Below, one piece after another: positions 31,731 to 56,587 of a DNA stretch of 64,000 nucleotides. Positions within the stretch are counted from its first letter, which is position 1; every line of letters begins with the position of its first letter. Where the stretch lies: NCBI GenBank assembly GCA_008534395.1, contig SHMQ01000002.1, forward strand, positions 65,557 through 129,556, given 5' to 3'. This DNA is from Candidatus Acidulodesulfobacterium acidiphilum (GTDB lineage: Bacteria > SZUA-79 > Acidulodesulfobacterales > Acidulodesulfobacteraceae). The notes beneath the pieces were generated by a model. That model was not told where the DNA came from. It ran no database searches and worked only from the letters and a program-made list of their open reading frames with translations. The position numbers and the translations under genes were made by a program.

Positions 31731-31778
31731 ATGGAGCCGGCGATAGGAATCGAACCTACGACCCGCTGATTACGAATC
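31731..31778. repeat. Left attachment repeat of element 2 (tRNA-Thr 3' part)
   Basis: 48 bp identical to 59159-59206. It contains the 3' half of tRNA-Thr(CGT) from the anticodon arm to the CCA end, on the minus strand. Confidence 0.93.
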
Positions 31779-32085: not shown

Positions 32086-32247
32086 TTAAGATTTTAACAA
32101 TACCAAAATATCGTTTTCCTGAAACCTTATCGAACCGCATATTTTTGTAGATTTTAATTTTTTACGGTAAACCCAATCATAAATTGTTACCGGCGATACT
32201 TTAAAAAATTCTGCAACCTCCTTGACCGTATAAAGTTTTTCTTTCAT
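32086..32247 (-). CDS. Excisionase-like helix-turn-helix protein
   Basis: 53 residues beginning MKEKLYTVKEVAEFFKVS. MerR-like/HTH_17 pattern VKEVAEFFKVSPVTIYDWV ... KLKSTKICGSIRF. Ribosome site GGAGG upstream. Small proteins of this type beside an att site serve as recombination directionality factors or helix-turn-helix regulators. Confidence 0.75.
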   Translation of the reverse strand: MKEKLYTVKEVAEFFKVSPVTIYDWVYRKKLKSTKICGSIRFQENDILVLLKS

Positions 32248-32407
32248 TCATAAAACCTCCGCGTTCCAAAACGCAAAAATAAATTGACCGACTGATAATA
32301 TTATACATTATATTATATATAATGTCAAGCTTTTTAAAAACAGTGCTATTTGACTTAATTTTTTTTGTGTTTTAATATTTCATTAAAAAATAAACGGAGG
32401 TGGAAAA

Positions 32408-33316
32408 ATGGAAAAATCAAAAGAAATTTTATTAGAGCATTTTAAAAAAATATTTTTAAAGAAAGACGATACCGTCGCTTTCGTCTTATTAAAAAAAGAT
32501 AACAAACCTTTTCAGATTTTTAAAAAAATAGGCGATATCGACGATTCATTTATCGAATTTTTAGAAAAAAACAATAATAACGGTTATAGTATTCACGGCT
32601 CAGTAAATCCGCTTTTACCAAACCCGACAAAAAGAACTAAAGATTTTTACAGCGAAAATCAGCGGAGACTATGGCTTGATTTAGATAATAAAAAAAATAA
32701 TTATATATTATTAAAATTTAAACAATTTTTAATAGATTTTAATTTACCCAAGCCAAACCAGATAACCCAAAGCTCAGAAGGAAATTATCATATATATTGG
32801 GTTTTAGACAAAGAATATAATTTTGAAATATTGTCTAAGATGATGTTGAGAATGAATATTTTTTTAAAACTTGATCATACGCAAGATATAACAAGGCTTT
32901 TAAGACTGCCAGGATTTTATAGTAAAAAACCAGGCAAAAACGATTTTGTATGTTGTCCGTTTAAAAGTCTTAACAAATTACCGGTAAATATAAATTCTTT
33001 TGCTAAAATTGACAATATAAAAATACAAGCACCTAATAATGAAAATATAAAATCTAATATCATGGCTTTCTCAGACGAAAAAGGAGAGTTGTGGAATTTT
33101 AAAGTAAACTCAAAGCAGACAACCAGAGATATCTACAATATATCGACAAAAAGGTTAAAAAGCAAATCTTTATCGGAAATAGATTTATCTTTTGCCAAAA
33201 TTTTAGATATAAATAATGTGTCTATGGAAATCATAAAAACATTATTGATATCTTTAGCAACCGGCAGAAAACCTAACCCCGAATATTACGCACAAAAAAC
33301 GATAGAAAAACTTTAA
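32408..33316 (+). CDS. RepB-like primase domain protein
   Basis: 302 residues, CGGAGGTGG site. The central part matches the RepB-like primase family: RRLWLDLDNKKNNY (Asp pair of the active site), PNQITQSSEGNYHIYWVLD, and DITRLLRLPGFYSKKPG. It lacks a helicase domain, which is in the next genes. Probably initiates DNA synthesis of the element. Confidence 0.8.
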   Translation: MEKSKEILLEHFKKIFLKKDDTVAFVLLKKDNKPFQIFKKIGDIDDSFIEFLEKNNNNGYSIHGSVNPLLPNPTKRTKDFYSENQRRLWLDLDNKKNNYILLKFKQFLIDFNLPKPNQITQSSEGNYHIYWVLDKEYNFEILSKMMLRMNIFLKLDHTQDITRLLRLPGFYSKKPGKNDFVCCPFKSLNKLPVNINSFAKIDNIKIQAPNNENIKSNIMAFSDEKGELWNFKVNSKQTTRDIYNISTKRLKSKSLSEIDLSFAKILDINNVSMEIIKTLLISLATGRKPNPEYYAQKTIEKL

Positions 33317-33339
33317 ACTCAATTTTTAAAAAAAATAAC

Positions 33340-33510
33340 CGTTAATCCCAGCTTATTATTAACAAGTCAACGATTTTTCGCAAAATAATAAAAAACGCTA
33401 TATATATTTTTTTAACGCCGCAACACCTTGATATTACTAAGTTTACCGGTATTGAGTTTGACTATTTTATTTTTTATAACTATATTTTCATTAATTAATA
33501 ATAATTATTA
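33340..33510 (+). repeat. Leader direct repeat, copy 1
   Basis: About 170 bp strongly similar to 56161-56335, including AACAAGTCAACGATTTTTCG (here) and the AAAAACGCTATATATATTT tract. Each copy directly precedes a small plus-strand gene, so it is likely a shared promoter/leader. Confidence 0.75.
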
Positions 33511-33541
33511 TTAATAATTTTAAAAAAAAGGGGTGAATAAA

Positions 33542-33667
33542 ATGATTACGATAATTTTAGTAGTAATAGCAATAGTTGCTGATATAGTTTTTAACGATTC
33601 AATCTTAACGATGAGAGTTTTATCGGTTTTAGCAAATATAGCAAACGAAATATTTAAAAATATTTAA
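33542..33667 (+). CDS. 41-residue membrane peptide
   Basis: Starts MITIILVVIAIVADIVFN; single hydrophobic helix and a short helical tail. AAAGGGGTG site. Preceded by the leader repeat. Confidence 0.55.
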   Translation: MITIILVVIAIVADIVFNDSILTMRVLSVLANIANEIFKNI

Positions 33668-33674
33668 GTATTTA

Positions 33675-33714
33675 GCGAGCGCAAGATACAGCGCCCGCCG
33701 GCTTGCTGGCGCTT
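33675..33714. repeat. GC-rich palindromic repeat, copy 1
   Basis: GCGAGCGCAAG..GGCTTGCTGGCGC, inverted relative to similar copies at 49730-49780 and 57860-57907. Strikingly GC-rich within AT-rich DNA; may fold as a hairpin. Confidence 0.6.
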
Positions 33715-33802
33715 AAAACAAAAAAATTAATTTAGGAGGTATAAGGTTTATGGTTTTATAGTTTTACTATGTTTTCATTCCACGCCGTCCTCGCAGTAAA
33801 AA

Positions 33803-34261
33803 ATGAATACAAAAGATTTAGAAAGTTTAATCAGAGAGGCATATTTACCGTTTTTAGCCGAAGAATATCCTAATAGTTATAATATAAACGAAATTTTGAG
33901 CGACAAATATATTTCTGATTATATCATAAAAAAAGCCGCGCAAGGGAAAAATAAAAATTGTAATAATTGTGATGATTTTCAAGAATTAGACAAATTTTTA
34001 AAAATGGAAGTGCATTTTTTATATAAAAATTTGCTATATCGCTTAGAAAAATACAATTTTAACGATAAAAAAATAAGAAAGAGCCGTTCAGAGAATATTC
34101 TAAAAAAGGCAATGTTGTCATTATTATGGTTTCAAAAATATTTTCATAAAGTCAGTTTTGACGATTTTATAAGCAATAATAATGGGGAAGGCTTAAGATA
34201 TGCAGACATTATCGACGACGATGACAAAAGTATTTTTGCATTAAAAGATATTATCTTATAA
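33803..34261 (+). CDS. Hypothetical helical protein, replication-region
   Basis: 152 residues between the primase and helicase genes. Helices such as ISDYIIKKAAQGK and RSENILKKAMLSLLWFQKYF. No clear ribosome site at the ATG; a strong AGGAGG lies 60 bases upstream in front of a four-codon frame. No family recognised. Confidence 0.6.
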   Translation: MNTKDLESLIREAYLPFLAEEYPNSYNINEILSDKYISDYIIKKAAQGKNKNCNNCDDFQELDKFLKMEVHFLYKNLLYRLEKYNFNDKKIRKSRSENILKKAMLSLLWFQKYFHKVSFDDFISNNNGEGLRYADIIDDDDKSIFALKDIIL

Positions 34262-34272
34262 GGGTGGAGAAA

Positions 34273-35703
34273 ATGGAAGAATTAAACGAAGAACTAAAAA
34301 AACAATTTCAAGAATTTATTAACAAAAATAAAGCTAAGAGTTTAAATGAAATAGCTATTATCGGAGATGATAAGGAGAGAAAGGCCGAATTTGAAAATTG
34401 GTTAAAAGATTATCAATTCGAAACCGACGACCGCTATTTTTTCGCAAAAGAACTTGAGACCGAGAAATTTATAGTTTATGACAAAAATAAAAAGACCGTT
34501 TCGAGATTCGAAAATGTGGATATGATTTTATCGGTTTTAGAAAATAAATATAATCTATCACTAAAAACTGTTTTGAAATCAAAATTTGTTATATGCCGCA
34601 TAATTTTTGACCCGAAACAAGAGGCTTTAATTTTCTGCAAAGAAGACGAGATAGAAAAATTTATAATTAATACATATTTTATCTCAGAAATTGAAGACGA
34701 GGCACAAGCTAAAAAAAATGTTAACGGCTTAGAACTTGAAACAGCTATTGATTATTTAGACAAAACCTGCCCGAATATTTCAGTTATTATTAACAATTTG
34801 TTTCAAAAGCCCGAAGAAAAAAAATATGTTATCAACTGGCTGGCATATATCGCGCAAACTAAAAATAAGACAAGAAATTCTATTGTCATTAAAGGCGTCC
34901 AGGGCTCAGGCAAAAACGTTTTTTTTGAAAAAATAATAACGCCGTTTTTTTCGAAAAGTCATTGCGTTGTTGTGAGCAATGAAATTTTCAACCGTTTCAA
35001 TTCGCTCTTAGAAAATAAAACTTTTATAGCTTTCAATGAAATAAAACCGGACTTTAAAGAAGGCTCAAAAGTTTACGAAATTCTAAAAGAAGTTATAGCC
35101 GACGATACGTTGACAATTGAGACGAAATTTCAAAACTCAAGAAAAATTAAAAATGTTTCCAATTGTATTTTCTTTTCAAATCATTCAATACCGATTGTTA
35201 TCGATATGAGCGACAGACGATATTCAATAATAAATTGTATGAACTCATTAACAGAAAAGTATAGTTTTGAAGATTTAACAAAAATTATTGAAACCGGTAT
35301 CCCAAACGAAATTGTCAATTTTTGGACAACTATTTTATCTATAAAATTTAATGGGGCTTTAGCGCTTTCCGTTTTGCAAAACGAACAAAAAGAAATCATA
35401 CAAAAATCGACTACCGAAATTGTAGATGTTTTTGCTCATTACATTTATAAAAAAGATTTCGATAATTTTTTTGAATTTTTAGAAAACGAAACAAACTCAT
35501 TCTTCGATATTGAAATATATATAAATAGTTTAAAAACTCAAATTTCTAAAAATTTCATAAACTCTGCAACATTGTTTTCAATATATAAAGTTTTTAAAAC
35601 AGACGCAACACTTATCAAATTTACAAGAAGGCTTTCGGCAATTCTAGGACAGCCATTTAAGAAAGAAATCGAGGGCATTCGCTATTACGGATGGTCAATT
35701 TAA
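34273..35703 (+). CDS. Primase-associated helicase (D5/DUF5906-like)
   Basis: 476 residues from the ATG at 34273. Superfamily 3-like ATPase core: Walker A VIKGVQGSGKNVFFEKI near residue 210, NKTFIAFNEI (Walker B), and CIFFSNHSIPIVIDMSDRRY (sensor and Arg finger). This is the arrangement of the P4/D5/DUF5906 helicases of phages and plasmids. With the separate RepB-like primase it forms a split primase-helicase. Confidence 0.82.
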   Translation: MEELNEELKKQFQEFINKNKAKSLNEIAIIGDDKERKAEFENWLKDYQFETDDRYFFAKELETEKFIVYDKNKKTVSRFENVDMILSVLENKYNLSLKTVLKSKFVICRIIFDPKQEALIFCKEDEIEKFIINTYFISEIEDEAQAKKNVNGLELETAIDYLDKTCPNISVIINNLFQKPEEKKYVINWLAYIAQTKNKTRNSIVIKGVQGSGKNVFFEKIITPFFSKSHCVVVSNEIFNRFNSLLENKTFIAFNEIKPDFKEGSKVYEILKEVIADDTLTIETKFQNSRKIKNVSNCIFFSNHSIPIVIDMSDRRYSIINCMNSLTEKYSFEDLTKIIETGIPNEIVNFWTTILSIKFNGALALSVLQNEQKEIIQKSTTEIVDVFAHYIYKKDFDNFFEFLENETNSFFDIEIYINSLKTQISKNFINSATLFSIYKVFKTDATLIKFTRRLSAILGQPFKKEIEGIRYYGWSI

Positions 35704-35959: not shown

Positions 35960-36240
35960 TATATATATTATATATATTATATATATTAAGAATTATAAAA
36001 CATTATTTATATTATAGAATGTAAAACATTTAAGAAATATAAGACATTATAGAAATATAAAACATTAAAAGTTAAATAAAATATTTTAAATATTAAAAAT
36101 ACATTTAAGAATTATAAAACATTATTTATAAATTATAAAACATTTATAGGATATAAAAACATTATAGAATTATAAAACATTTATAGAATGTAAAACATTT
36201 TATTTATTATTTTACAAAATATTTTAACGAAATTAAAACG
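35960..36240. repeat. Degenerate AT-rich tandem repeats
   Basis: About ten copies of an ATTATAAAACATT-like unit, some as AATGTAAAACATT, spaced irregularly. Could be an AT-rich unwinding region or an operator array directly before the transfer-operon promoter. Confidence 0.6.
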
Positions 36241-36267: not shown

Positions 36268-36546
36268 TAAGGCTTACGCCTATTGATTTAGCACACACTA
36301 CGCACTAAAGTGTCATTATCTTTATCATAGCCTTTTTTTCTATCATTTCCGGCAAAACATTAAAAAAAACTACCTCAAACGCAAATGATTGCGCTATGAT
36401 AGGCCTAATTTACACCCCTCAAACCCGCGTAATTCCGTTTAAAATTTCTAAAAAACCCGCAACATTAAATGATAAAAGGGGTCGCAGGCTTTTTAATTGT
36501 ATACTATATATAGAAACAAAACAAAAAATTGATTAAAAGGTGAACA
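36268..36546 (+). repeat. 279-bp inverted repeat, left copy: promoter/leader
   Basis: Almost identical (about three mismatches, no gaps) to the reverse complement of 48171-48449. It ends TTGATTAAAAGGTGAACA, providing the ribosome site of the first gene of each operon. An oriT or a regulatory protein target may lie inside (short palindromes such as GGCCTAATTTACACCCC). Confidence 0.9.
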
Positions 36547-36550
36547 TAAA

Positions 36551-36748
36551 ATGGCAAAAAAAATAGACACGATTAAGACGAAAAAATGTGCTGAAAGTTA
36601 TCTCGATTTTTTACAAAATAAAAACTTAGAAAGCTATTTTTTGTATCAAAAAGATTACAACAAATTGAACGCAGATGAGAAATTTTTAGTAATTTTAGAT
36701 ATCACGGTTTTGAAAGAAATAATCAAAGACGAATCAAAAGGTGAATAA
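36551..36748 (+). CDS. Small protein at the head of the transfer operon
   Basis: 65 residues. Lys/Tyr/Asp rich, helical (CAESYLDFLQNKNLESYFLY). AAGGTGAAC ribosome site within the 279-bp repeat. Followed directly by the relaxase. No family recognised; could be a transfer accessory. Confidence 0.6.
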   Translation: MAKKIDTIKTKKCAESYLDFLQNKNLESYFLYQKDYNKLNADEKFLVILDITVLKEIIKDESKGE

Positions 36749-36749
36749 A

Positions 36750-39700
36750 ATGTTGAGCGCAGGAAAACAATATCAAAACTACGAATATTACGCTAAAGAT
36801 CCTATTTTTAGTGTCGAAGAAGGACATTTTATAGGAGGTCTTGCGGCTGAACTTGGATTCAAAGAAATGAACAAGGAAACATTCGAAAAATTACAAGCCG
36901 GACAAAACGCAAAAGGTGAACAAATCATCGAAATGGCGCAAGGGAAACACGACCCAGGAAAAGATTTTACATTTTCTTTAGACAAAGATTTGTCAATTTT
37001 TATGTTATCATCTGAACAAAATAAAGTCGCAATGCAAAACGCTCTTAATGCAGCAGTTGACAAAATAATTGATACGGCCATAAGCGAAGGTTTTTTATCG
37101 TGGAGGGAACATAAAGGAGACCAAATAATAGACCATAAAATAACCGATAAAAATCAAATTGCGGCTTATGGTTTTACTCAATCATTATCAAGAGACAACG
37201 ATCCAAACGTTCACGCTCACATCGCTTTTTTTAATCAAACTAAAACAGAAAATGGAGATTTTAGGGCTATATCTTTTGACGGTCTTTTCACAAAAGGAGC
37301 GCGCGAATATTTAGATAATGTCGGTAAAAATACATTTTTAGATACGCTTCAAAAAGGAATTAATAAAGATATTTCAAGCGAACTTGAAACGAACAAAAAA
37401 ACAGGAGCAATTAACTTGAAAAGCTATAGCCAGGAAGACAGAGATTATTTTTCTAAAAGAAGTCAAGAAATAGAAAAAGCGAAAATAGAATTACAAAAAG
37501 AATATCCAAATGCTAGTAAGGGCGAGATATCACAAATGGCAAATAAATTGACCAGAAATGATAAAGATTTTGATTTTAAAAAAGAAGATTTAGACAAAGA
37601 ATTAGAAAAAGTCAAGGGAAAAACTAACGCTATAGAAGCTAATATCGAGCTATCAATGTCTTACAATAAAGAGAATAACTTAAGCTTTTATAAAACAAAA
37701 CTTGTCTCAAGTTTGGATAATTATATGAAGGCTTTAACTCAAAAAGAAATCTATAGCAGCAAAAATTCTTTATTCACGGAAGTATTAAAAGAAAACCGTT
37801 ATGCTACAATCGAAAATGTCAAACAAGTTTATGACGAATATCTTAAAAACGGTAAAATTGAAGAACGAGATTTAACTACAAAAAACGGTCAAACTATCAA
37901 AACTTTTGCTTTAACCGAAGATTTAAAAGCAGCAGAAGAAATTTACAAAATGGCGGCAAACGGAAGAGGTAATTCTTTTACCGTAGGAACTAAAGAAGAA
38001 AATGATAAAATAATTGCACAATTCGAAAAAGAAAAAGGTTTTATTTTATCTCCGCAACAAAGAGAAGCAGTTGAAAAATTTATGAACCAAAAAGACCAGT
38101 TTAATTTTACGCAAGGATTCGCCGGAGCAGGAAAAACTACAGCTTTTGAATTAACAAAAAGATTAGCTGAAAATTCTAATTTTTCTATTGTAGGTTTCGC
38201 AAATAACGGCAGCCAAGCTCAAAATTTAATGAATGAGAGCGGTATTAAAAGTCAGACTATGGCTAGTTTTATAGCCTCTGAAACAAAAAACAGACAAGGA
38301 GAAAAAGCCCTTGTAATAATTGACGAAGCGTCAATGACTGGTTTAAAAACTTACTCAGAATTTTACAAAAAATTAAATGATACTTTCGGAGCTAATAATT
38401 GGAAAACTTCTTTAACTGGCGACACAAATCAACTACAATCAATTGGCAAGGGAAGAGTTTTTAACGATAATATAGAAAATTCTGAAAATAAAACGGTTAT
38501 TTCTGATATAAGAAGACAAAAAAACGAAACTTTAAAAAGTCATATATACGAATATTATGAACAATTTGAAAAAAACAAAATAGACGGCCAAGAAATGGTA
38601 AAAAGTTTCAAAGATTATATAAAAGTAGTAAAAAAAGAAGATGATATTTTAAAAGAAGCGGTTAAAACTTATATGTCTTTTAATAAAAAAGAAAGTACCG
38701 TAATTTTGGTTAGAACTAACGAAGAAAAAAATATATTAAACGCCGAAATTAGAAAAGAACTTTCGCAACAAGGAATTCTAAAAGGTAAAGATAATTTTGT
38801 CGGAACTTTAACTAAAAAAAATATTGAAGAAACCAATAAATTAAAGTCTGAAAGCTACGAAAAAGGCGATATTATAAGTTTCAGGAAAAGTGAATATAAA
38901 GAAATAAGCCGCACAGACGATAAAAACAATCTTATTTATTATAAATCTTTTGTGTATAAAAATGTTGATAAAAATGTAAAAATCGACGAAGAAAAAAATA
39001 AAGTTTTTATTAAAGATAAAAAAAGCGGTTTAATTCAATCTTATGATTTAAGAAATTATGATAAAGAATCAAAAAACGTTTCTTATTTTATCGGTAAAAA
39101 TGAATCAAGACTAAATTTATCCGAAAATAGCGAAAAAACTTTAAAAATTCAAAAATATGAAGAAAACAAAATATCTCTTAAAAAAAACGATAAAGTCATA
39201 TTTACAGAAAATATCAATTTAATAAATAACACAGAAAAAACTGTTAAGTATATTAAAGCTAGCGACCAAAGCTTGTTAACACAAAAAATTCTAAAAGCCG
39301 ATAAAAATTTTAACAGAATTTTAGACGAAAAAAAGTTTAATAAAGAAATTGCTAAAGCGGAAAAATTAGGCGCAATAATTAACAGAGTCGAGCTTAAAAA
39401 CAAAGACGGCAAATTAATAGGCGAATCGGCGAAAATAGTATATGAAGAGAAAAAAGAATTAAAAAACGGTCAATTTGCTACTTTTGTAGAAAAAAAAGGG
39501 AATATTTATAATTTTAAAGTCGGCGAAAATATTTTATCTTTAGATAAAAACAATAAAAGTAACGCCGCAGCTTTACAAAAAATAGAACATGCTTATGCCG
39601 TCACGACCGATAAGGCTCAAGGGTTAGCCTTTCTAAATGTCGTTTCCGTCGGAGCTGTAAAAAAGACGGCACAAAAAATTTTGGTTGATATTACAAGAGC

Positions 39701-39956
39701 TATAAAAAACCTTGTGCTTATCGTTTCTGAAAAGTCAATGGAAAAAAAAGAATTAGAAAATGGTAAACTCGGGAAAAGCGATTTAGAAAAGGCTTTTGAA
39801 AATAAACAAGAAAAAACGACTCTTAGAGAAGAAACTAAAAAGGAAATATTCGGAAATTCAAAAAATATAGATAAAACCGAAGAAAAAAAAGAAAAATTTG
39901 AAAATTCAAAAACTAAAGGTGAAGAAAATGAAAACGTTAGGGTTTATGGCAGATGA
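36750..39956 (+). CDS. MobF (TrwC/TraI) conjugative relaxase-helicase
   Basis: 1068 residues from the ATG at 36750 (AAAGGTGAATAAA upstream). Relaxase: tyrosines in GKQYQNYEYYAKD, the histidine triad block DNDPNVHAHIAFFN, and DGLFTKGAREYLD. C-terminal helicase: Walker A FAGAGKTTAFELTK near residue 465, VIIDEASMTG (Walker B), SLTGDTNQLQSIGKG, AYAVTTDKAQGLAFLNVV. It nicks oriT and unwinds DNA for transfer. The relaxase lacks the usual large C-terminal extension of F TraI. Confidence 0.92.
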   Translation: MLSAGKQYQNYEYYAKDPIFSVEEGHFIGGLAAELGFKEMNKETFEKLQAGQNAKGEQIIEMAQGKHDPGKDFTFSLDKDLSIFMLSSEQNKVAMQNALNAAVDKIIDTAISEGFLSWREHKGDQIIDHKITDKNQIAAYGFTQSLSRDNDPNVHAHIAFFNQTKTENGDFRAISFDGLFTKGAREYLDNVGKNTFLDTLQKGINKDISSELETNKKTGAINLKSYSQEDRDYFSKRSQEIEKAKIELQKEYPNASKGEISQMANKLTRNDKDFDFKKEDLDKELEKVKGKTNAIEANIELSMSYNKENNLSFYKTKLVSSLDNYMKALTQKEIYSSKNSLFTEVLKENRYATIENVKQVYDEYLKNGKIEERDLTTKNGQTIKTFALTEDLKAAEEIYKMAANGRGNSFTVGTKEENDKIIAQFEKEKGFILSPQQREAVEKFMNQKDQFNFTQGFAGAGKTTAFELTKRLAENSNFSIVGFANNGSQAQNLMNESGIKSQTMASFIASETKNRQGEKALVIIDEASMTGLKTYSEFYKKLNDTFGANNWKTSLTGDTNQLQSIGKGRVFNDNIENSENKTVISDIRRQKNETLKSHIYEYYEQFEKNKIDGQEMVKSFKDYIKVVKKEDDILKEAVKTYMSFNKKESTVILVRTNEEKNILNAEIRKELSQQGILKGKDNFVGTLTKKNIEETNKLKSESYEKGDIISFRKSEYKEISRTDDKNNLIYYKSFVYKNVDKNVKIDEEKNKVFIKDKKSGLIQSYDLRNYDKESKNVSYFIGKNESRLNLSENSEKTLKIQKYEENKISLKKNDKVIFTENINLINNTEKTVKYIKASDQSLLTQKILKADKNFNRILDEKKFNKEIAKAEKLGAIINRVELKNKDGKLIGESAKIVYEEKKELKNGQFATFVEKKGNIYNFKVGENILSLDKNNKSNAAALQKIEHAYAVTTDKAQGLAFLNVVSVGAVKKTAQKILVDITRAIKNLVLIVSEKSMEKKELENGKLGKSDLEKAFENKQEKTTLREETKKEIFGNSKNIDKTEEKKEKFENSKTKGEENENVRVYGR

Positions 39957-40206
39957 TGAGCTGCACGAGAAAATAGAGGAATATTGCGGAAAAAACGATA
40001 TAACAAAAGCAGACTTTTTAAAATCGGCAATATTAGAAAAATTAGGTAAAGACAAACCGGCAATAAATGATGTTTTAAGTCGTGTCTATATTATGGTTTA
40101 TGCTTTAACTAAAAATTCAAATATACAAAATTTTGATAAACTTAAAGAAGAAGCAGCTAAAACTTTAAGCGCGATAGCAACAAGTTTAAGCGAGGTGGCA
40201 AAATGA
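39928..40206 (+). CDS. Ribbon-helix-helix accessory DNA-binding protein
   Basis: 92 residues from ATG at 39928 (GGTGAAGAAA site), overlapping the relaxase stop. MKTLGFMADDELHEKIEEY and NDITKADFLKSAILEKLG resemble mobilization accessory/CopG-like proteins. Likely assists the relaxase at oriT. Confidence 0.6.
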   Translation: MKTLGFMADDELHEKIEEYCGKNDITKADFLKSAILEKLGKDKPAINDVLSRVYIMVYALTKNSNIQNFDKLKEEAAKTLSAIATSLSEVAK

Positions 40207-40421
40207 AAAAAATACTTTATGAAAATTACGAACTTTTAATTTTATACTTTGTTCTAAGCATATTAATTACGTTATCAATTTATTTTGACAAAATAAAAGA
40301 CGCAATAATAGACCTAAAATTAAGAATTATAATGTATTACGGTTATTTTTCTTTATCAATTTTTTTTGTGTTTATATTTTTAACGATTTATTTTTATTTT
40401 TTAAGAAAAAAGGTGAGATAA
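40203..40421 (+). CDS. Small membrane protein
   Basis: 72 residues; two transmembrane segments (LILYFVLSILITLSIYF and FSLSIFFVFIFLTIYFYFL). GAGGTG site; start overlaps the previous stop by four bases. Confidence 0.6.
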   Translation: MKKILYENYELLILYFVLSILITLSIYFDKIKDAIIDLKLRIIMYYGYFSLSIFFVFIFLTIYFYFLRKKVR

Positions 40422-40422
40422 A

Positions 40423-40854
40423 ATGCAGGAACCATCAAGACAATTAGGCTATTTCACATATATCAACAACTTTTTAACGCAAATTTACTTGAAAACGAGA
40501 GCTCTATTTTTGATAGCGCTGTCAAGTTTTTTAGGAGCTTTTGCTATCACAATTATAATTTTTATAAAGCTTTATATAAAAGTGTATAAAGGATTTTATC
40601 TTGTTTTTCATACTTTTAAATATAAAATATTTACGGGGCAAGGTTTACACTATTTAGGCGTAGTTTTTAGTATGTTTTTGCACGTTTTACTAGAAACCGG
40701 AATTGTGATTATTTTTATATCTGTTATATTTTTTTATTTTTCATATACTTTTTTGAAAAGTAAATCAGCAAAACTTTACAAAAAGAAATATGTCCGCGGC
40801 GTTGAAATAATTGAAATGAAAGAACTGATTAAAAAATTAAATAAAGAAGAATAG
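40423..40854 (+). CDS. TraD N-terminal-like membrane anchor protein
   Basis: 143 residues with two transmembrane regions (near 25-50 and 90-115), then YVRGVEIIEMKELIKKLNKE. This matches the cytoplasmic junction just before the ATPase domain of TraD-type coupling proteins. The ATPase is the next gene, eight bases away. So a coupling protein is split into anchor plus motor. Confidence 0.75.
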   Translation: MQEPSRQLGYFTYINNFLTQIYLKTRALFLIALSSFLGAFAITIIIFIKLYIKVYKGFYLVFHTFKYKIFTGQGLHYLGVVFSMFLHVLLETGIVIIFISVIFFYFSYTFLKSKSAKLYKKKYVRGVEIIEMKELIKKLNKEE

Positions 40855-40862
40855 GGTGAATT

Positions 40863-42197
40863 ATGAAATCTAGAATAGAAATCAAAACGGTTGACGGTAT
40901 TATGAGCCTGCCGCCAAACACAGAAACTAAACATACTTTAGCGGTCGGAGCGACAGGCGCAGGAAAAACGCAATTAATCGAACAATACGTCGATAATTTA
41001 ATTCAAAGAGGCGATAAAGGCGTTATACTTGACCTAAAGGGAGAATTTACCGCTAAATTTTATCGGCCTGGCGTTGATTTTATATTAAATCCTTTAGACC
41101 AGCGAAGCGTTAAATGGACAATTTCAAATGACATTAATTTTAACTTATTAAAGGCAGACGCTGAAGTTATAAGCAATTCTTTAATAAACGATTTGTCGGC
41201 TCAATCCGAAAATGAGAAATTCTTTTTACAATCGGCAAAAAATGTTTTAAGAGCGCTTATTTATTTTACTTATGCGTCTGGTTTTAAATTAAATAGCGAT
41301 TTAAACAAAAAGATTTTTAGCGGATATGAAGATATTAAGTCGATGTTAGAAGCTGTTAAAGCTACAGATTCTTTGTCTGCTTTAGGCGATAAACCGAGTC
41401 CTCAATCTGACGGCGTTTTAGCGACAGCTCACGTTTGGAGCAGAGCAATAGATTTATTAAGTAATATGGACGGTGATTTTTCGATAGAAAATTGGATAAA
41501 AAACGGCGAAGGTCTTATTTTTTTAAACGCCTCACAAAAATATCAAAACATCGTAAGTCCGGTTGCCAGGTTTTTTATTGACTTTTTATTAAATATACTG
41601 TTAGGATTAGGACAAGATTTAGAAAGAAGAATTTTTATAATACTCGACGAATTTCAAAATTTATCAGCTATTCCGTCTTTGTTAACCATTTTGACTTTGG
41701 GTAGGTCTGCCGGAGCAAGCGTAATTGCCGGAACGCAAGATTTCGGTTTAATAGACCAAAAATATTCACAAAACGCTAAAACGACTTTACTTAACGCGAT
41801 GAATACTTTATTTTTATTAAGAATTATCGAACCTAACACTGCGGAATATTTGTCAAAAGCTATGGGCGAAAGTGAGGTTGAGGATTATACGACCTCGTCA
41901 AGTTTATCAATGGATGAAAATTGGGACAGAATAAACATTCAATCGAATCGGAGAAATGAAAGACTTGTTATGCCTATTGATTTGTCAAGTTTAGGAGATT
42001 TAGAGTTTTATTTTAAAAATAAAAAATATATGGCGAAATCAAAACTTAAATTAACTATAAGGAAAAACAAACAACCTGCGTTTTTACCTATTTCTCAAGA
42101 AATAAGCGTAAATAAAGAGCAAGAAACAATACCGGCCGACTCATCTGAACAAAAAACAGAACAAAAAACACAAGAAAATGAAAAAACTTTATTTTAA
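40863..42197 (+). CDS. traD: TraD/TrwB-like coupling ATPase, soluble part
   Basis: 444 residues. Walker A AVGATGAGKTQLIEQYV, GVILDLKGEFTAKFY, ILNPLDQRSVKW, FIILDEFQNL (Walker B), and SVIAGTQDFGLID. This is the TraD order, but without the N-terminal transmembrane helices, which are in the preceding gene. Acidic, Gln/Glu-rich tail. Last gene of the relaxase operon. Confidence 0.9.
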   Translation: MKSRIEIKTVDGIMSLPPNTETKHTLAVGATGAGKTQLIEQYVDNLIQRGDKGVILDLKGEFTAKFYRPGVDFILNPLDQRSVKWTISNDINFNLLKADAEVISNSLINDLSAQSENEKFFLQSAKNVLRALIYFTYASGFKLNSDLNKKIFSGYEDIKSMLEAVKATDSLSALGDKPSPQSDGVLATAHVWSRAIDLLSNMDGDFSIENWIKNGEGLIFLNASQKYQNIVSPVARFFIDFLLNILLGLGQDLERRIFIILDEFQNLSAIPSLLTILTLGRSAGASVIAGTQDFGLIDQKYSQNAKTTLLNAMNTLFLLRIIEPNTAEYLSKAMGESEVEDYTTSSSLSMDENWDRINIQSNRRNERLVMPIDLSSLGDLEFYFKNKKYMAKSKLKLTIRKNKQPAFLPISQEISVNKEQETIPADSSEQKTEQKTQENEKTLF

Positions 42198-42228
42198 TTT
42201 ATTTTAATGTTAGTTTAAAGCAGATATT

Positions 42229-42254
42229 AAAAAAGCCGCTATAAGCGGCTTTTT
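42229..42254. terminator. Bidirectional terminator between convergent operons
   Basis: AAAAAGCCGCT ATA AGCGGCTTTTT, serving the TraD gene on one strand and the 42256-42834 gene on the other. Confidence 0.9.
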
Positions 42255-42255
42255 G

Positions 42256-42834
42256 TTATTTTAATTTTTTTATTTTACTTACCCTGGGCATAGCAAGACC
42301 AATTGTTTTACCTTTTTTGTTAGATATTGCAGCGAAAGTATCATCAGTGGCTAAAGCCAACACATAAGTTTTATAAGGGGAAAATAACATTTTTTCGTGT
42401 ATTATAATCATTTTTTTGGATGAATAATGAATATAAAACTTAATTTCTGCTTTATTATTACAATAACCAATCATTTTTATATTATACATTACGCCTCCAG
42501 ATAACATAGGTAATAAAGTACTTGTTACACTAAAAGAACTTTTATAACCGTTTAATTCTTTACCTTTAAAAATAATTTGAATGGGTGTATTATTTTGTGA
42601 ATAACACCACGCAGCAGGTAATAAAAAATCTTTTGTTACTGCAAAATCAATTTTTATTTTTGGAACTGTAAAAAATAATTGATTTATGACATAATTTTCT
42701 AGATGGATTTGTTTATTGATAGTGGAATACGTCCCTTGATAATATATTGATGTATAATGTTTTGCTGCAAATGCCGTTTTGTAAATATTAAATACTAAAA
42801 ATATTGCGATAAAACTTAATATAATTTTTTTCAT
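42256..42834 (-). CDS. Secreted protein, unknown
   Basis: 192 residues. Signal peptide (IILSFIAIFLVFNIYKTAFA), then Tyr/Thr/Asn-rich beta-like sequence with LLPAAWCYSQNN. Ribosome site GGTGA as in all genes of this operon. No family recognised. Last gene of the minus-strand secretion operon. Confidence 0.65.
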   Translation of the reverse strand: MKKIILSFIAIFLVFNIYKTAFAAKHYTSIYYQGTYSTINKQIHLENYVINQLFFTVPKIKIDFAVTKDFLLPAAWCYSQNNTPIQIIFKGKELNGYKSSFSVTSTLLPMLSGGVMYNIKMIGYCNNKAEIKFYIHYSSKKMIIIHEKMLFSPYKTYVLALATDDTFAAISNKKGKTIGLAMPRVSKIKKLK

Positions 42835-42849
42835 GATTATTCACCTTAT

Positions 42850-43671
42850 TTATTTATTGATTTTTATAAAATGTTTAACGAATAAGCTGACTAATTCGTT
42901 AAAATCCTTTAAATTTCCTGACGAAACCATATCGGTTAAACCCTTAATTGTTGGGAATACTTTTTTACCTGGCGGCGTAATATATGAAATAAACGACGGT
43001 GTTAAATTCATTGTAGATATATTTGAATAACCGTTTTGTTTTAACATAAACACAAGCTGATTTTGTAGTTGTGTCGAAAACAGAGATTGGGTGACCATAA
43101 AACTGTCGCCACTTATCGGATTGCCAGCCACTATGAAAGAGCCACAGGCATAAGTTGCATAATTGTTTTCTATATGATAATCACAATGGTATTCAAAATC
43201 ATTATGGTTTAAGCAATAATTATTTAAAATTTTAAGGGCTTTAAACTTATTTTTACTAACATTTTCTCTAGCTAAAATTAGCGATTTAAGATATAAAGCA
43301 GATTTTAAAGCCTCTTTATATCTTTGTAAATTTTGTGTTTGATGTGTATCAATATAATAATTAATTTTTTTTATTTCTGTGTTTACGTAGTTTAAAGCTA
43401 TAGATATCATAAAAGCTCTATAATTTATCCAAGCAAGTAATTGATAAGTTTTATATCGTAAGGCTCTGTTTCCACCGGTTATAATATACTTTTTAAATGC
43501 AGGTAAAAGATTAGTTTTAAGACCTACACTTTTTACAAAATAATGATTGGTGGAGAAAAAAGTAACGTGTGGATAAGGTCTATTACTAGTTTTAATACTA
43601 TATTGAAACGCTTGAGCAGCCATCGGTATTAATAATACCGCTAAAATTAAACTTAAAATTAATTTTTTCAT
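42850..43671 (-). CDS. Secreted variable-head/constant-tail protein 1
   Basis: 273 residues with signal peptide. The C-terminal 80 residues (QSLFSTQLQNQLVFMLKQNG, then STMNLTPSFISYITPPG and GLTDMVSSGNLKDFNELVSL) are nearly the same as in the two paralogues at 44512 and 45538. The N-terminal part shares the YRAFMISIALNYVNTEIKKI region with the third. No known family. Likely periplasmic or surface. Confidence 0.7.
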   Translation of the reverse strand: MKKLILSLILAVLLIPMAAQAFQYSIKTSNRPYPHVTFFSTNHYFVKSVGLKTNLLPAFKKYIITGGNRALRYKTYQLLAWINYRAFMISIALNYVNTEIKKINYYIDTHQTQNLQRYKEALKSALYLKSLILARENVSKNKFKALKILNNYCLNHNDFEYHCDYHIENNYATYACGSFIVAGNPISGDSFMVTQSLFSTQLQNQLVFMLKQNGYSNISTMNLTPSFISYITPPGKKVFPTIKGLTDMVSSGNLKDFNELVSLFVKHFIKINK

Positions 43672-43687
43672 GATTGCACCTTTTTAT

Positions 43688-44500
43688 TTATTTATCTTTT
43701 TCTAATATATTTAGCAATTCTCTTTGATATTTTGTATTCTTTCGTTTAAGAATACTACCTAAATATGAAAAAACACCAAAAATTTGTTGGCGTAAAACTT
43801 GCAAAGCTGTTGGCGAAGAAGTTTGTTTTGTTCCAGAAAGATATTTTGTTCCATCACCTTCAGTAAAAGTTTTGTATTTAAAACGAACTGGATATCTCGA
43901 TAAACAAGTTATGTTTGGATTTATATTTTTATCAGTTAGCAAAACTAAAGCAGTTCTATATTCTGTTTTAACTACAGCCGTATACAAAGCCGTTTCATAA
44001 TGTTGCCCTTGACTATTTATATTATTATATATATTATTTAACGTTAATAATCTTTTGACAAAATTGGCGAGAGCTCTTCCATGATAGACCATAGACACTG
44101 GAATAAAATTATCTATTGGACCACTATAAAATCCTTGATATCTATAAAAATAAATTTTACATATCGGCTGTTCTGTTTTTTGTTTTACTATTTTATTATT
44201 TTTAAACAAATATTGATAATATATACATCCTTCACCTGGTTTTTGGTATTTTCCGCCTTTTACAAAATTCATTTGTCTGATTAAAAACATAATAGAAGGA
44301 CTGCCCCTATAATTTCTTAAAAGTTCTCTTAAATCGTGCATTGAAAAATGTTTATGCTTTGTAAATACTAGATAAGATAAAACTTTTAATTCTCCAGATA
44401 AAACAGGTTTTGAGACTATTTTGTTAACGGAGACCGCATTGGCTGAAACCGTAAAACCTAAAATTAAAATTAATGCTACAAAAATACTTATTTTTTTCAT
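43688..44500 (-). CDS. Secreted protein, unknown
   Basis: 270 residues. Signal peptide like its neighbours (MKKISIFVALILILGF). No constant tail. Helical C-terminus (LQVLRQQIFGVFSYLGSILK) and a Cys-containing middle. Same operon. Confidence 0.6.
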   Translation of the reverse strand: MKKISIFVALILILGFTVSANAVSVNKIVSKPVLSGELKVLSYLVFTKHKHFSMHDLRELLRNYRGSPSIMFLIRQMNFVKGGKYQKPGEGCIYYQYLFKNNKIVKQKTEQPICKIYFYRYQGFYSGPIDNFIPVSMVYHGRALANFVKRLLTLNNIYNNINSQGQHYETALYTAVVKTEYRTALVLLTDKNINPNITCLSRYPVRFKYKTFTEGDGTKYLSGTKQTSSPTALQVLRQQIFGVFSYLGSILKRKNTKYQRELLNILEKDK

Positions 44501-44511
44501 GATTATTCACC

Positions 44512-45525
44512 TTATTTATTGATTTTTATAAAATGTTTAACGAACAAATTAACCAATTCGTTAAAATCTTTTAAATTTCCTGTTGCAACCATATTGGTTA
44601 GTCCCTGGATTGTATTTAATACATATCTATCGAATGGTTTTTCATTTTCTATTATATTAGAAAACTTTGGTTTATATGGTTCTGTAATATATGATACAAA
44701 CGCAGTTGTGAGATTCATTGTTGAAGCATTTGAAAAACCGTTTTGTTTTAACATAAACACAAGCTGGTTTTGCAATTGTGTTGAAAATAGAGTTTTGGTA
44801 ATTATAAAATCATCAGGAGCATTGAAAGGAACAGTCAGCATAAAAGAACCGCTCGTATAAATGGTATATCCCATACCATTATTAGTATAGGTTGTATCAT
44901 TATAACCAACTGAACAGTTATTATGTCTTAAACAATAATTATTCATAATATTAATTGCCTTATATCTATTGTTGCCTAATAATTCTTTTTCTTTTGCTAT
45001 TGCTAATAACACTTTCCCCCTTTTTGCCGCTAATATTTTTTGTTCATCTAATTTTGCTAATGAAAATAATGGCGAATATTTAACATAATAATTGTGAAAT
45101 TTTTTATTATCTTTTATAAGTTTCATAAAATAAGAGAACATATTTAGAGTATAAGACAATCCATAAGAAGTTGCTTTATTTGTTATTTTTAAATTGGGAA
45201 CAACATTTTCAAAAAAGTTTTGTATTTCGGCTTTTTTTACCCAAAAAAAGGAACCATTAGGATAAAAATAATTATACATATACGAAGCCAAAATTTCCTC
45301 ATATTTTATTGGATATTCTCTGTTTGGATGTTCCAACATTTTTTTTGCCATACTATAAGAAAGTTTATGTTTTACTGACAAACAACCCCCTGTGTAATAC
45401 TTAGTCGTGTAATGATGTTTACTAAGTATCGGAAATTGTATAGGTTTATAATGATAAGAAGCAAAAGATTGACTTGCAAAACCTAAAATTAAAATTAATG
45501 CTATTAAAATACTTATTTTTTTCAT
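44512..45525 (-). CDS. Secreted variable-head/constant-tail protein 2
   Basis: 337 residues, signal peptide. Tail shared with 42850 and 45538. The head is unrelated in detail to the others except NRYKAINIMNNYCLRHNNC. Inserted segment KPKFSNIIENEKPFDRYVLN within the tail. Confidence 0.7.
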   Translation of the reverse strand: MKKISILIALILILGFASQSFASYHYKPIQFPILSKHHYTTKYYTGGCLSVKHKLSYSMAKKMLEHPNREYPIKYEEILASYMYNYFYPNGSFFWVKKAEIQNFFENVVPNLKITNKATSYGLSYTLNMFSYFMKLIKDNKKFHNYYVKYSPLFSLAKLDEQKILAAKRGKVLLAIAKEKELLGNNRYKAINIMNNYCLRHNNCSVGYNDTTYTNNGMGYTIYTSGSFMLTVPFNAPDDFIITKTLFSTQLQNQLVFMLKQNGFSNASTMNLTTAFVSYITEPYKPKFSNIIENEKPFDRYVLNTIQGLTNMVATGNLKDFNELVNLFVKHFIKINK

Positions 45526-45537
45526 GATTATTCACCT

Positions 45538-46527
45538 TTATTTATTTATTTTTATAAAATGTTTAACGAATAAGCTGACTAATTCGTTAAAATCCTTTAA
45601 ATTACCTGACGAAACCATATCGGTCAAACCCTGAATTCTAGATAATACTTCTTTGCCTGGCGGCGTAATATATGATACAAATGAAGTTGTAAGGTTCATT
45701 GTTGATGCGTTTGAATAACCGTTTTGTTTTAACATAAACACAAGCTGGTTTTGCAATTGTGTTGAAAATAGAGATTGTGTAATCATAAAATTGTTGCCAC
45801 TTGTCGGATCACCAGAGACCACAAAAGACCCATAATAATAAGTATAATATCCATTTTGATCGTGTTTATAGCCCTTAACTTCACAACCATTATGTCTTGA
45901 ACAATAATTATTTATAATAGCAATTGCTTTATATCTATTATTACCTAATTTCGCTTTAAATTTTTGTTCATCTAATTTATTTTTTCTTATTAAATATTCA
46001 ATAGTTTTTTCTACTTTAATAACTGGTAAATGTTTTATTATTGAAGGTTGTAAAGCAACAGATTCTTTAATATATTTTAAACCTTGTCTATATTTTTTTT
46101 CGCGTGCTAATTTTATACCTTTAAAATAAATAGAAATAGCTTTTTGTCTCGCTAAAATTTTTGATTTAAGATATAAAGCTTTTTTTAAAAAATATTTTGC
46201 TTTTGCCGAATTATTTATTTTTTTAATATCTGTATTAATATAATATAAAGCAGCTTTTGTCATATAAGATTTATAATTTATAAAAGCAAGCATTTGTAAA
46301 GCTTTATATTGTAAAATTTTGTTATTACTATTTCTAGCGTCTGCTTTTATAATAGGTAAAATGTTAATATTAATGCCTGCTCCCTTGACCATATAACCAT
46401 TTGTAGAGAAAAACACAACATGAGGATAAGGTTTATTGTTAATCTTAGCCTTATATTGAAACGCTTGAGCAGTTATCGGTATCAATAATACCGATAAAAC
46501 TAATAAACTTAAAATTATTTTTTTCAT
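45538..46527 (-). CDS. Secreted variable-head/constant-tail protein 3
   Basis: 329 residues, signal peptide ending AQAFQ. Head has the N-terminal block SKTSNRP/INNKPYPHV(T/V)FFSTN also seen in protein 1, plus an extra TPR-like stretch (GIKLAREKKYRQGLKYIKES). Same constant tail, ending VKHFIKINK. Confidence 0.7.
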   Translation of the reverse strand: MKKIILSLLVLSVLLIPITAQAFQYKAKINNKPYPHVVFFSTNGYMVKGAGININILPIIKADARNSNNKILQYKALQMLAFINYKSYMTKAALYYINTDIKKINNSAKAKYFLKKALYLKSKILARQKAISIYFKGIKLAREKKYRQGLKYIKESVALQPSIIKHLPVIKVEKTIEYLIRKNKLDEQKFKAKLGNNRYKAIAIINNYCSRHNGCEVKGYKHDQNGYYTYYYGSFVVSGDPTSGNNFMITQSLFSTQLQNQLVFMLKQNGYSNASTMNLTTSFVSYITPPGKEVLSRIQGLTDMVSSGNLKDFNELVSLFVKHFIKINK

Positions 46528-46572
46528 TTTTAATTACCTCTAATTTTAGCAAGGTTAGCTTGCTATAATATA

Positions 46573-46851
46573 CTAAAATTTTGAAAGCTGAGCAAGTTTT
46601 TTATTAATATTTTGCGTTGAAATTTTCTTTTGTATTTGCTCATTTAATTGCTTTTGTCTTTTTTCGGCTCTTTTCTTATATACTTTTTTACCGGTAAATT
46701 GATAATTAAACTCATTCCAATCCCTAGAAAAAGCAATACTTTGCTTTTTGACAATAGCGTGTTGTTTATGTTGTTGATTTTCTATATAAAAAAATATCAA
46801 GATTAAAACCGGAATAAACAATAATAATATTTTGAACCATGAACTTTTCAT
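46573..46851 (-). CDS. Small inner-membrane protein, FxRDWNxFN type
   Basis: 92 residues; N-terminal transmembrane segment (ILLLFIPVLILIFFYI), then FSRDWNEFNYQF and a charged coiled-coil tail. Homologous to the protein at 52444 (FNRDWNNFNANF), each next to a large secreted protein gene. Confidence 0.65.
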   Translation of the reverse strand: MKSSWFKILLLFIPVLILIFFYIENQQHKQHAIVKKQSIAFSRDWNEFNYQFTGKKVYKKRAEKRQKQLNEQIQKKISTQNINKKLAQLSKF

Positions 46852-46868
46852 AATTTGCCACCTCTATT

Positions 46869-47747
46869 CTATAATAGACCGCTTGTTAACATATCCGAGG
46901 CAATATCGTTTTTAATGCCATCGACCCAATTAACGGCTCTATCCCTTGTAGTATTTGAACTATAATCGCTATTTTTTCCGTATCCGATAGTAATTATATC
47001 GTTTTGACCGGCAAAATCAGCCTGAGGATTAAACCAGTCTAAACCGCCCCATGATAATTTAGGTGACCCCTCAAGCGATAAGAAAACGCCGCCGCATTTA
47101 ATATTTTTGCCGTATAAAACGCAGCTATGACTTTTTATTTCTCTTTTAATTTCTTTAAAAGAACTTTTTAACCTTTTATTTTGGTGCATAATTGCGGCTA
47201 GCAAAGAGGCTTCCGTATAAGCATAAAAAGCGTTTACCGATATATTATCGACGGAACCGCCAATATTGTTATTTAAATCGTCAAAAGTTTGAGCTATAAT
47301 TAATCCATAAGTTGCGGCACATATCATATAGTTTTTAACTTTTCTTTGATTTAATATTTTTGTTTTCATTCCTAGTTCCTGCGAATTATTCATATATTGT
47401 AAAGCGTAGGTATCTATTACCTGAACACCTGAATAATCTTTTCTGACTCCAGTCACAAAAGAGCTTAAAGTTTTAGGATTTGTAACTAAACCGCATTTTT
47501 CAAAAAAAGGAACTGTTTGCTCTAATCTTGACAAATAAGGTAAATAAAGAGAATATATAGCTAAAGTTTTTGTAAATTCTGCTTTATTTGTCATAGCCCT
47601 TTTTTGGTCTAAAGCTTGTTTTTCGGCAACTGATAAATCGGAATTTGCGGAAACCCCTACCGACATCGCAAACGCTCTGCTATCTATTATTGCTAACAAA
47701 AATAAAACAACAAAACTTGATATAATTAATATTTTTTTTATCATCAT
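46869..47747 (-). CDS. Secreted protein, unknown
   Basis: 292 residues from the ATG at 47747 (AGGTAAAA upstream). Signal peptide ending SRAFA. Two Cys in SHSCVLYGKNIKCGG and GSPKLSWGGLDWFNP; a faint parallel to the start of the protein at 51343. Ala/Leu-rich helices suggest a filament or assembly component, which is speculation. Confidence 0.6.
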   Translation of the reverse strand: MMIKKILIISSFVVLFLLAIIDSRAFAMSVGVSANSDLSVAEKQALDQKRAMTNKAEFTKTLAIYSLYLPYLSRLEQTVPFFEKCGLVTNPKTLSSFVTGVRKDYSGVQVIDTYALQYMNNSQELGMKTKILNQRKVKNYMICAATYGLIIAQTFDDLNNNIGGSVDNISVNAFYAYTEASLLAAIMHQNKRLKSSFKEIKREIKSHSCVLYGKNIKCGGVFLSLEGSPKLSWGGLDWFNPQADFAGQNDIITIGYGKNSDYSSNTTRDRAVNWVDGIKNDIASDMLTSGLL

Positions 47748-47846
47748 TTTTTTACCTATTATATTATTAATGCTAAAATAATCAAAAATGCTGACGAAGC
47801 CATAATTACCCAACCATCACACGATATTGAAAATCTTGAATAATTA

Positions 47847-47924
47847 GAATAATTATAAGGTGCAATCAATGAATTAAATATATGTGAATAATTATAAGGC
47901 GTAATCAATGAATTAAATATATGC
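47847..47924. repeat. 39-bp tandem repeat, two copies
   Basis: Two units of 39 bp (47847-47885 and 47886-47924) starting GAATAATTATAAGG, differing at three positions. They lie in the gap and the end of the 84-aa gene; the repeat supplies its stop codon. Confidence 0.7.
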
Positions 47925-48167
47925 ATTATCATTATTTACCTCTTGACGATTGCCAGCCTTTAATTTTTTAACAAAATCAATGTAAGATTTTTTACTTATT
48001 TTTTTATCTTTAATTGACTTTTGTAAGATTTCTATTTGTTTTTTTATAGATATTTTTTTGTCAATCATTAACTTTATTTCGTCTTGAAAAGATTCCAGAA
48101 AATTTTCATTTGACGTTAAAATATCTATCTCTTTTTTAATCTTTTCTTTTACTTTTTTGATATTCAT
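47913..48167 (-). CDS. Small basic coiled-coil protein
   Basis: 84 residues. First gene of the minus-strand operon, with ribosome site from the right 279-bp repeat. Heptad-like VKEKIKKEIDILTSNENF and KKISIKKQIEILQKSIKDKK. No family recognised; may parallel the 65-aa first gene of the opposite operon. Confidence 0.6.
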   Translation of the reverse strand: MNIKKVKEKIKKEIDILTSNENFLESFQDEIKLMIDKKISIKKQIEILQKSIKDKKISKKSYIDFVKKLKAGNRQEVNNDNAYI

Positions 48168-48170
48168 TAT

Positions 48171-48449
48171 TGTTCACCTTTTAATCAATTTTTTGTTTTG
48201 TTTCTATATATAGTATACAATTAAAAAGCCTGCGACCCCTTTTATCATTTAATGTTGCGGGTTTTTTAGAAATTTTAAACGGAATTACGCGGGTTTGAGG
48301 GGTGTAAATTAGGCCTATCATAGCGCAATCATTTGCGTTTGAGGTAGTTTTTTTTAATGTTTTGCCGGAAATGATAGAAAAAAAGGCTATGATAAAGATA
48401 ATGACACTTTAGTGCGTAGTGTGTGCAAATTCAATAGGCGTAAGCCTTA
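48171..48449 (-). repeat. 279-bp inverted repeat, right copy: promoter/leader
   Basis: Mirror image of 36268-36546, the same length with only about three differences. Drives the minus-strand operon starting at 48167. Confidence 0.9.
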
Positions 48450-48452: not shown

Positions 48453-48956
48453 TTAATAAACAGCGCTTAAACTTTTTAAAAAATCTTTATAATCAACTTT
48501 TCTATCATCTAATAAATTTAGTATTTCGATTTTGTTAACAATTTTTGCCATATTAAATATTCTAGTCTCAATTTCTTGAAAAATATTTTGTTCTAAATCG
48601 GCTCTTAAGATTTCGTAAAAACCTCCAAGAATGTTATAACAATCAAGCTGAAATACTAAATCTTTATTGTCAAAATTATATGTTATAAAGCTGTTATCCA
48701 AAGTCTGTAAAATTTTAACAGGTTCTGTTTTAAGCAGTCTAAAATTTATTATTGATTCTTCTACTTTTTCTAAAATATTTTTAAATAAATATTCAGATTC
48801 AATTGTAAAACCTTGAGCAACCTTTTTTTCTTGTTGTTCCGATAAAAATTTCATAAAAATTAATGTTAATAAACAATTTTTTTCGCAGGGCTCGTCAAAA
48901 TTAATTTCGCTTTTTACTTCTTTTAAAATTTTTAAAATAGCTTTTTTATTTTTCAT
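48453..48956 (-). CDS. Hypothetical protein
   Basis: 167 residues from the ATG at 48956 (GAGGTG site). Helical, acidic, Cys near the start (EPCEKNCLLTLIFMKFLSEQ). It lies just upstream of the right repeat. Function unknown. Confidence 0.6.
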   Translation of the reverse strand: MKNKKAILKILKEVKSEINFDEPCEKNCLLTLIFMKFLSEQQEKKVAQGFTIESEYLFKNILEKVEESIINFRLLKTEPVKILQTLDNSFITYNFDNKDLVFQLDCYNILGGFYEILRADLEQNIFQEIETRIFNMAKIVNKIEILNLLDDRKVDYKDFLKSLSAVY

Positions 48957-49043
48957 TTTTTCCACCTCAATATAAAGTTTTTTAATGAAATATTAATACA
49001 CAAAAAAAATAAGTCAAATTAAAAACCTATAAACTCAACAATA

Positions 49044-49664: not shown

Positions 49665-49729
49665 AAATAATAGTTTTTGTTATTCTAGATTTTAAAAACC
49701 TGTCGTAAGTGCTGAAAGCGCGCTAGCGT

Positions 49730-49780
49730 AAGTGCTAACGAGCCGGCGGGCGCCGTCTCTAGCGCTCGCCAAGGCTTAAA
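49730..49780. repeat. GC-rich palindromic repeat, copy 2
   Basis: Contains CGAGCCGGCGGGCGCCGTCT and GCGCTCGCC, the same unit as 57860-57907 and, inverted, 33675-33714. Sits in a gap of about 200 bases with no gene. Confidence 0.6.
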
Positions 49781-54938: not shown

Positions 54939-55213
54939 ATTTTTTCTATTTTTCCGCCACAGAAAGGGCATTCGTCATATTTTTCTTTAAATATTTCATA
55001 ACAATCTTGACAAAAATAAGCGTTTTGTATATGTATATAATTATTTAATTGTTGTATGTTTATTTTGTATAATCTCACAGGTATTTTATTTATATTTAAT
55101 AAAAAATTTTTTAACGGAATTAACGAATTGCCGGAACCGCAATTATCACATCTGTTTTTATCGGTCAAAATCCCGCAATGCCAACATATTTTTACATTTT
55201 CAGTTATTTTCAT
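54935..55213 (-). CDS. Double zinc-ribbon protein
   Basis: 92 residues. Four Cys pairs: CWHCGILT, CDNCGSG, CQDCYEIF, CPFCGG. Two rubredoxin- or ribbon-like sites. First gene of this minus-strand group. Confidence 0.7.
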   Translation of the reverse strand: MKITENVKICWHCGILTDKNRCDNCGSGNSLIPLKNFLLNINKIPVRLYKINIQQLNNYIHIQNAYFCQDCYEIFKEKYDECPFCGGKIEKI

Positions 55214-55980: not shown

Positions 55981-56140
55981 TTTTATTTTAGCGGAGCTCT
56001 TGACTTTATAAGGTTTATGCGTAATATAACATTATATAACGAATAATTTAGTGGAGTTCTTGACTTTATAGGTTTTATGCGTAATATAACATTAAACAAC
56101 GCAGAAATTAGCGGAACTCTTGACTTTATAGGTTTTTAGC
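55981..56140. repeat. 60-bp tandem repeats with core TCTTGACTTTATA
   Basis: Nearly three units (55981, 56041, 56101) in exact 60-bp phase, sharing TAGYGGARYTCTTGACTTTA (15-20 conserved bases) and GCGTAATATAACATT. The core TTCTTGACTTTA also forms the inverted iterons to the right. Confidence 0.85.
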
Positions 56141-56160
56141 GGAAAATCAAAAAAAATAGC

Positions 56161-56335
56161 CGTCAATCCTTACGTATTATTGACAAGTCAACGATTTTTC
56201 GCAAAATAATAAAAAACGCTATATATATTTTTTTTAACGCCGCAATCCCTTGATATTGTTGAGTTTGCCGGTGTTTAGGTTGACTATTTTTTTTTGTATA
56301 TTATAATTACATTATTAATTAAATATAATTATTAA
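56161..56335. repeat. Leader direct repeat, copy 2
   Basis: Second copy of 33340-33510, here followed by the 49-aa gene at 56378. Confidence 0.75.
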
Positions 56336-56377
56336 GTTTACTGAATACATTGAGAGACTTGATAAAAAGGTAATAAA

Positions 56378-56527: not shown

Positions 56528-56546
56528 AGACAAAGTATAATTCTTT

Positions 56547-56573
56547 AAAACCCGATAATATCGGGTTTTTTTA
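56547..56573 (+). terminator. Terminator of the 49-aa gene
   Basis: AAAACCCGATA/TATCGGGTTTT with T-run. Confidence 0.8.
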
Positions 56574-56587
56574 TACCTTTAAAGATT

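Follow-up and report, generated by a model that had tools for sequence, protein, structure and literature searches.

Why would an integrated element carry the same intergenic segment twice, in opposite orientations, ahead of two operons that face one another? The question arises in a 64,000-nt stretch of the Candidatus Acidulodesulfobacterium acidiphilum genome (contig SHMQ01000002.1, positions 65,557 to 129,556; hereafter the window), where a 279-nt segment at 36268-36546 (+ strand) recurs at 48171-48449 (- strand). The two copies align as an inverted pair without gaps, with 277 identical positions and a spacer of 11,624 nt. A preliminary description of this DNA was right about the coordinates, the equal length and the near identity of the copies, though the differences number two rather than about three. 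Both mismatches lie at the 5' end, at repeat positions 20 and 23, and the gene-proximal 256 nt, from nt 24 to the ribosome binding site, are free of differences. Each copy terminates in a ribosome site, AAAAGGTGAACA, 3-4 nt ahead of an ATG. The gap to the start codon is 4 nt for copy 1, which leads into orf65 (36551-36748, +), and 3 nt for copy 2, which leads into orf84 (47913-48167, -). On the other side of copy 2, orf170 (48453-48965, -) has its stop codon 3 nt before the copy begins, so that copy 2 makes up practically the entire intergenic interval, its bounds being those of the orf170 stop and the orf84 start.

Between positions 30000 and 55000 of the window there is no other inverted pair longer than 44 nt, and the repeat occupies no places beyond these two in the whole genome (2.09 Mb, 70 contigs), which together exclude a chance origin for the pair. 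A search for similar plasmid DNA found none. Weak matches to parts of the repeat at L004-L007 sit within or beside ordinary genes and were dismissed as chance. We likewise rejected the hexamer TATCAT as a fourfold operator: its count greatly exceeds the mean in shuffles, yet it was chosen post hoc, and shuffles often contain some equally frequent 6-mer.

The pair belongs to a 27.4-kb integrated element that has a 48-bp att direct repeat at its ends. A repeat and tRNA search places attR (59159-59206) within a tRNA-Thr(CGT) gene (59160-59234, -), while attL (31731-31778) is a copy of the 3' part of that gene, identical to attR at 48 of 48 positions; Rfam returned nothing above cut-off except tRNA. 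A tyrosine integrase gene (58009-59085, +; Phage_integrase, E=2e-36) is present, and adjoining attL is a gene for a small HTH_17 protein (32089-32247, -; E=5e-13), a candidate excisionase or RDF. From left to right, the element encodes a replication module recognised with Pfam (32408-35703, +) that includes a RepB-type primase (32408-33316, +) and a DUF5906/VapE-like helicase (34264-35703, +), followed by an iteron-like array, copy 1, orf65, a MobF relaxase, a small protein and a coupling protein. The array (35994-36223, +; TRF and pattern counts) has about 10 units with the core TATAAAACATT and a period of about 18-20 nt, and is found ahead of copy 1 only; with the helicase gene on one side and copy 1 on the other, it is a possible replication origin.

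Among the element proteins scanned, Pfam gave no match to T4SS genes; exported proteins of no known family, described below, could be novel T4SS parts. Two matches to TraC_F_IV (F-type TraC, VirB4-like) lie in the genome outside the element, at G000:C2:16535-17617 and G000:C5:62433-63512, and represent a possible helper T4SS. With no T4SS recognised within it and TraC genes elsewhere, the element reads as a mobilizable one that may use a helper. An integrase, att direct repeats in a tRNA gene, a relaxase and no recognised T4SS make it a probable integrative mobilizable element, like known members of that class with a relaxase and a coupling protein, from which it differs in adding an exported-protein family without known relatives. 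A 2017 review describes no canonical integrative mobilizable element with a MobF relaxase (PMC5704250), so the element is itself somewhat unusual.

The operon behind copy 1 begins with orf65, which belongs to no known family, and continues with the MobF relaxase-helicase (36741-39956, +), recognised by its likeness to TrwC and to the TrwC and TraI structures in the PDB and by passing the NCBIfam MobF cut-off (131 vs 100 bits). In the three-His metal site its protein has Q at the first position, where TrwC and the sister relaxases keep His, and a query of our collection with this relaxase gave no matches. The next gene (39898-40206, +) encodes a small protein that is possibly of the ribbon-helix-helix type and a TrwA-like accessory protein or autoregulator (RHH_1, E=0.15, below cut-off; structure model of low confidence). 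The last is a TraD/TrwB-type coupling protein (40863-42197, +), with E=4e-74 to TrwB_AAD_bind and E=1e-56, under that model's cut-off, to TraD_Ftype. Behind copy 2 and orf84 lies a predicted exported or membrane protein operon (42256-47813, -), delimited from open reading frames, intergenic DNA repeats and homologues in sister elements. It comprises five partly paralogous genes together with those at 46573-46851 and 46869-47813, none of a known family; the partly paralogous genes stand in a row at 42256-46527, and their start regions are repeated. The two operons converge on one terminator-like hairpin with an 11-bp stem (42230-42254), which is symmetrical and therefore usable from both sides.

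We think it probable, at roughly 0.6, that the 279-nt pair is a control cassette present in duplicate, one copy for each of two transfer operons. Each copy would provide operator, promoter, leader and ribosome binding site to one of the convergent operons, copy 1 to the relaxase and coupling protein and copy 2 to the exported proteins, with transcription starting inside the cassette. A single factor, coded by the element or by the host, would bind the identical DNA and switch both operons together, and the ribbon-helix-helix-like protein at 39898-40206 and the orf170 product are candidates for that regulator. The copies would be kept alike by gene conversion, or would owe their likeness to recent duplication. 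If this is right, a duplicated and homogenised cassette ties DNA processing to exported-protein expression in a MobF mobilizable element, and the exported proteins are likely transfer factors.

The repeat contains a conserved -10-like TATACT (TATACTATATATA) and no consensus -35. When sigma-70 hexamers were sought at a spacing of 16-18 nt, the best pair in the segment scored 9/12 and was sited elsewhere than the -10-like sequence. In the absence of a strong sigma-70 promoter from the repeat, we infer shared control, and the promoter itself, rather than observe them. The earlier proposal of facing operons under one shared control does agree with the anatomy, namely the exact intergenic tract, the ribosome sites, the convergence on one terminator and the parallels in sister elements. 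A different promoter, TTGACT-N16/17-TAATAT-like, is common to the primase, orf170 and 33458 operons of the element, has a similar counterpart at 56.2 kb and is absent from the 279-nt repeat. The cassette therefore marks a separate class, and this supports a picture in which the element family places classes of operons under common control, the two transfer operons forming a class of their own here.

Elsewhere the 279-nt tract is found only in G015, the remnant of an element at the same tRNA gene, whose single copy lies between orf170 and the start of orf84, with an identical -10-like TTGTATACTATATATA. Identity between the window and G015 is 83.5% in the tract, 93% in orf170 (91% at third positions) and 100% in the first 84 nt of orf84. 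The tract is thus more diverged than its flanks and gives no sign of purifying selection across its whole length; the excess is modest against third positions (p 0.02) and strong against all flanking coding DNA (p 2e-6). These data bear on the main rival to a duplicated control cassette, a chance recent duplication that placed a second version of the copy 2 intergenic segment before the relaxase operon, with no selected role beyond that of any working promoter. Such an event is possible but rather unlikely. It accords with two differences per 279 nt between the copies as against 16.5% to G015, and with other duplicated intergenic segments in the element (32348-32450 and 48918-49019; 33328-33522 and 56149-56340). 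However, copy boundaries within 3-4 nt of gene ends are hardly to be expected at random, and the excess divergence from G015 is limited to the repeat. From the sequences compared, a jump of this kind hints at ectopic gene conversion between copies, for which it is the expected trace, and replacement by a diverged copy would thus imply an older pair. Rapid drift of intergenic DNA in the G015 remnant is a possible alternative cause of the divergence.

Two further readings take the repeat as a substrate for recombination or transfer. That the pair serves a reversible inversion of the 11.6-kb segment seems highly improbable, despite the resemblance to DNA inversion sites in having a long inverted pair flank a segment. 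Perfect inverted identity over 256 nt is enough for RecA-dependent recombination, and the inversion suggested in the preliminary description is physically possible. A short-read assembly could also conceal both orientations: with the two mismatches at the outer end, the assembled orientation depends on read pairs that span 256 identical bases. However, G015 keeps the order orf170-copy-orf84 seen in the window, and the relaxase is integrase-distal and the exported-protein operon integrase-proximal in G000, G005 and G006 alike, and hence no inverted form is seen in the sister elements. No recombinase gene is recognised within the segment, and no invertase gene, in contrast to known inversion sites. 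The copies being identical from nt 24 up to the ribosome site, either orientation has the same promoter content and inversion is predicted to leave the control of both operons unchanged, and so could not act as a switch. Improbable too, if less so, is that the repeat is an oriT present twice in opposite orientation, from either of which the MobF relaxase could start transfer or recombine. Copy 1 lies directly upstream of the relaxase operon, is AT-rich and adjoins the iteron-like array, a position expected of an oriT (PMC4853378), and the repeat includes a hairpin-like GCACTAAAGTGT followed by TATCATAGCC. Yet when compared with the nic region of R388, as given in PMC4814116, the repeat scores 19 at best, a value reached by 517 of 1000 dinucleotide shuffles, and higher scores occur elsewhere in the element; no R388-type MobF nic site (GTGCGTATTGTCT/ATAGCC-like) stands beside a hairpin in the repeat. 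As a single strand the 279 nt fold no better than shuffles do (z -0.53), and both copies include a full leader and ribosome site, needless for an oriT. The earlier suggestion of a duplicated oriT thus fares no better than shuffled sequence, in a comparison that covers the R388 type of nic. An oriT of another type is possible, and equally good candidate sites for it are the array of iteron-like units ahead of copy 1 and the stretch at 55.2-58.0 kb with its many repeats.

The duplicated control cassette has a broader setting in related elements. The gene at 46869-47813 marks a five-element family confined to one genus among the genomes searched: in the collection its matches fall only in four sister elements, and neither viral contigs nor plasmid DNA yielded a relative. 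A structure prediction for its protein was too poor for use (pLDDT 44). In G003 the coupling-protein, relaxase and 46869-homologue genes succeed one another on one strand, with the relaxase gene (9317-12298) and the homologue (12336-13217) codirectional and 37 nt apart. G005 and G006 have convergent relaxase and exported-protein operons like the element in the window. Ahead of both operons, G005 carries a 93-nt inverted pair (90% identity) unrelated to the 279-nt repeat; this motif is also found near integrase genes in other elements, and may therefore have another function. The two operons of G006 have just about 21 nt in common, in a different orientation at one of them. In G003, G005 and G006 a box, GTTAGCTATATTAATA, is common to many operons, and shared control is therefore a habit of the family. 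We would venture, as a doubtful proposal, that elements of this genus keep their relaxase genes and a new exported-protein family under one control. Where the single operon was divided into two that face each other, a control segment would have been duplicated, after which gene conversion would have kept the copies the same; this would have happened independently in different elements, each time with a sequence unrelated to the other (279 nt in the window, 93 nt in G005). Were joint control and gene conversion the true reading, the exported proteins would belong to the transfer machinery as a component so far unrecognised.

Among known systems, the copy 1 operon is most readily set beside trwABC, the Dtr region of R388 with its autoregulation by TrwA. 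Both have a MobF relaxase, a TrwB-type coupling protein, a small and here possibly ribbon-helix-helix protein within the same operon, and an upstream intergenic control region. The element differs in its gene order, with the relaxase first, in yielding no R388-like nic, and in a control region that recurs before a second operon.

Several other repeats mark this DNA. The stretch at 55200-58000 is non-coding and filled with repeats (60-bp units, TTACTTAAAGTCAAG units and GGGTGCCATGGATTTT repeats), and is a possible origin region. GC-rich palindromic AGCGAGCCGGCGGGCGCC units are scattered through the AT-rich element, at 33672-33715, 49729-49772 and 57850-57905. A genus-wide motif of about 60 nt, GCGTTTTAAGGC-N20-AGGTATAAAACCATTAAC, recurs in several integrative elements, where it lies close to integrase genes and ahead of MobF genes, frequently as an inverted pair, and is possibly an oriT, an origin or an integrase site. 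Its sites are at 57517, 57736 and 26382 in the window, and at L040 945/11993, L043 4655/7570, L061 1385, L073 7262, L074 6315/9464 and L075 6423/4372. One of them marks the 3' end of a second tyrosine recombinase gene, at 26394-27506, outside the element.
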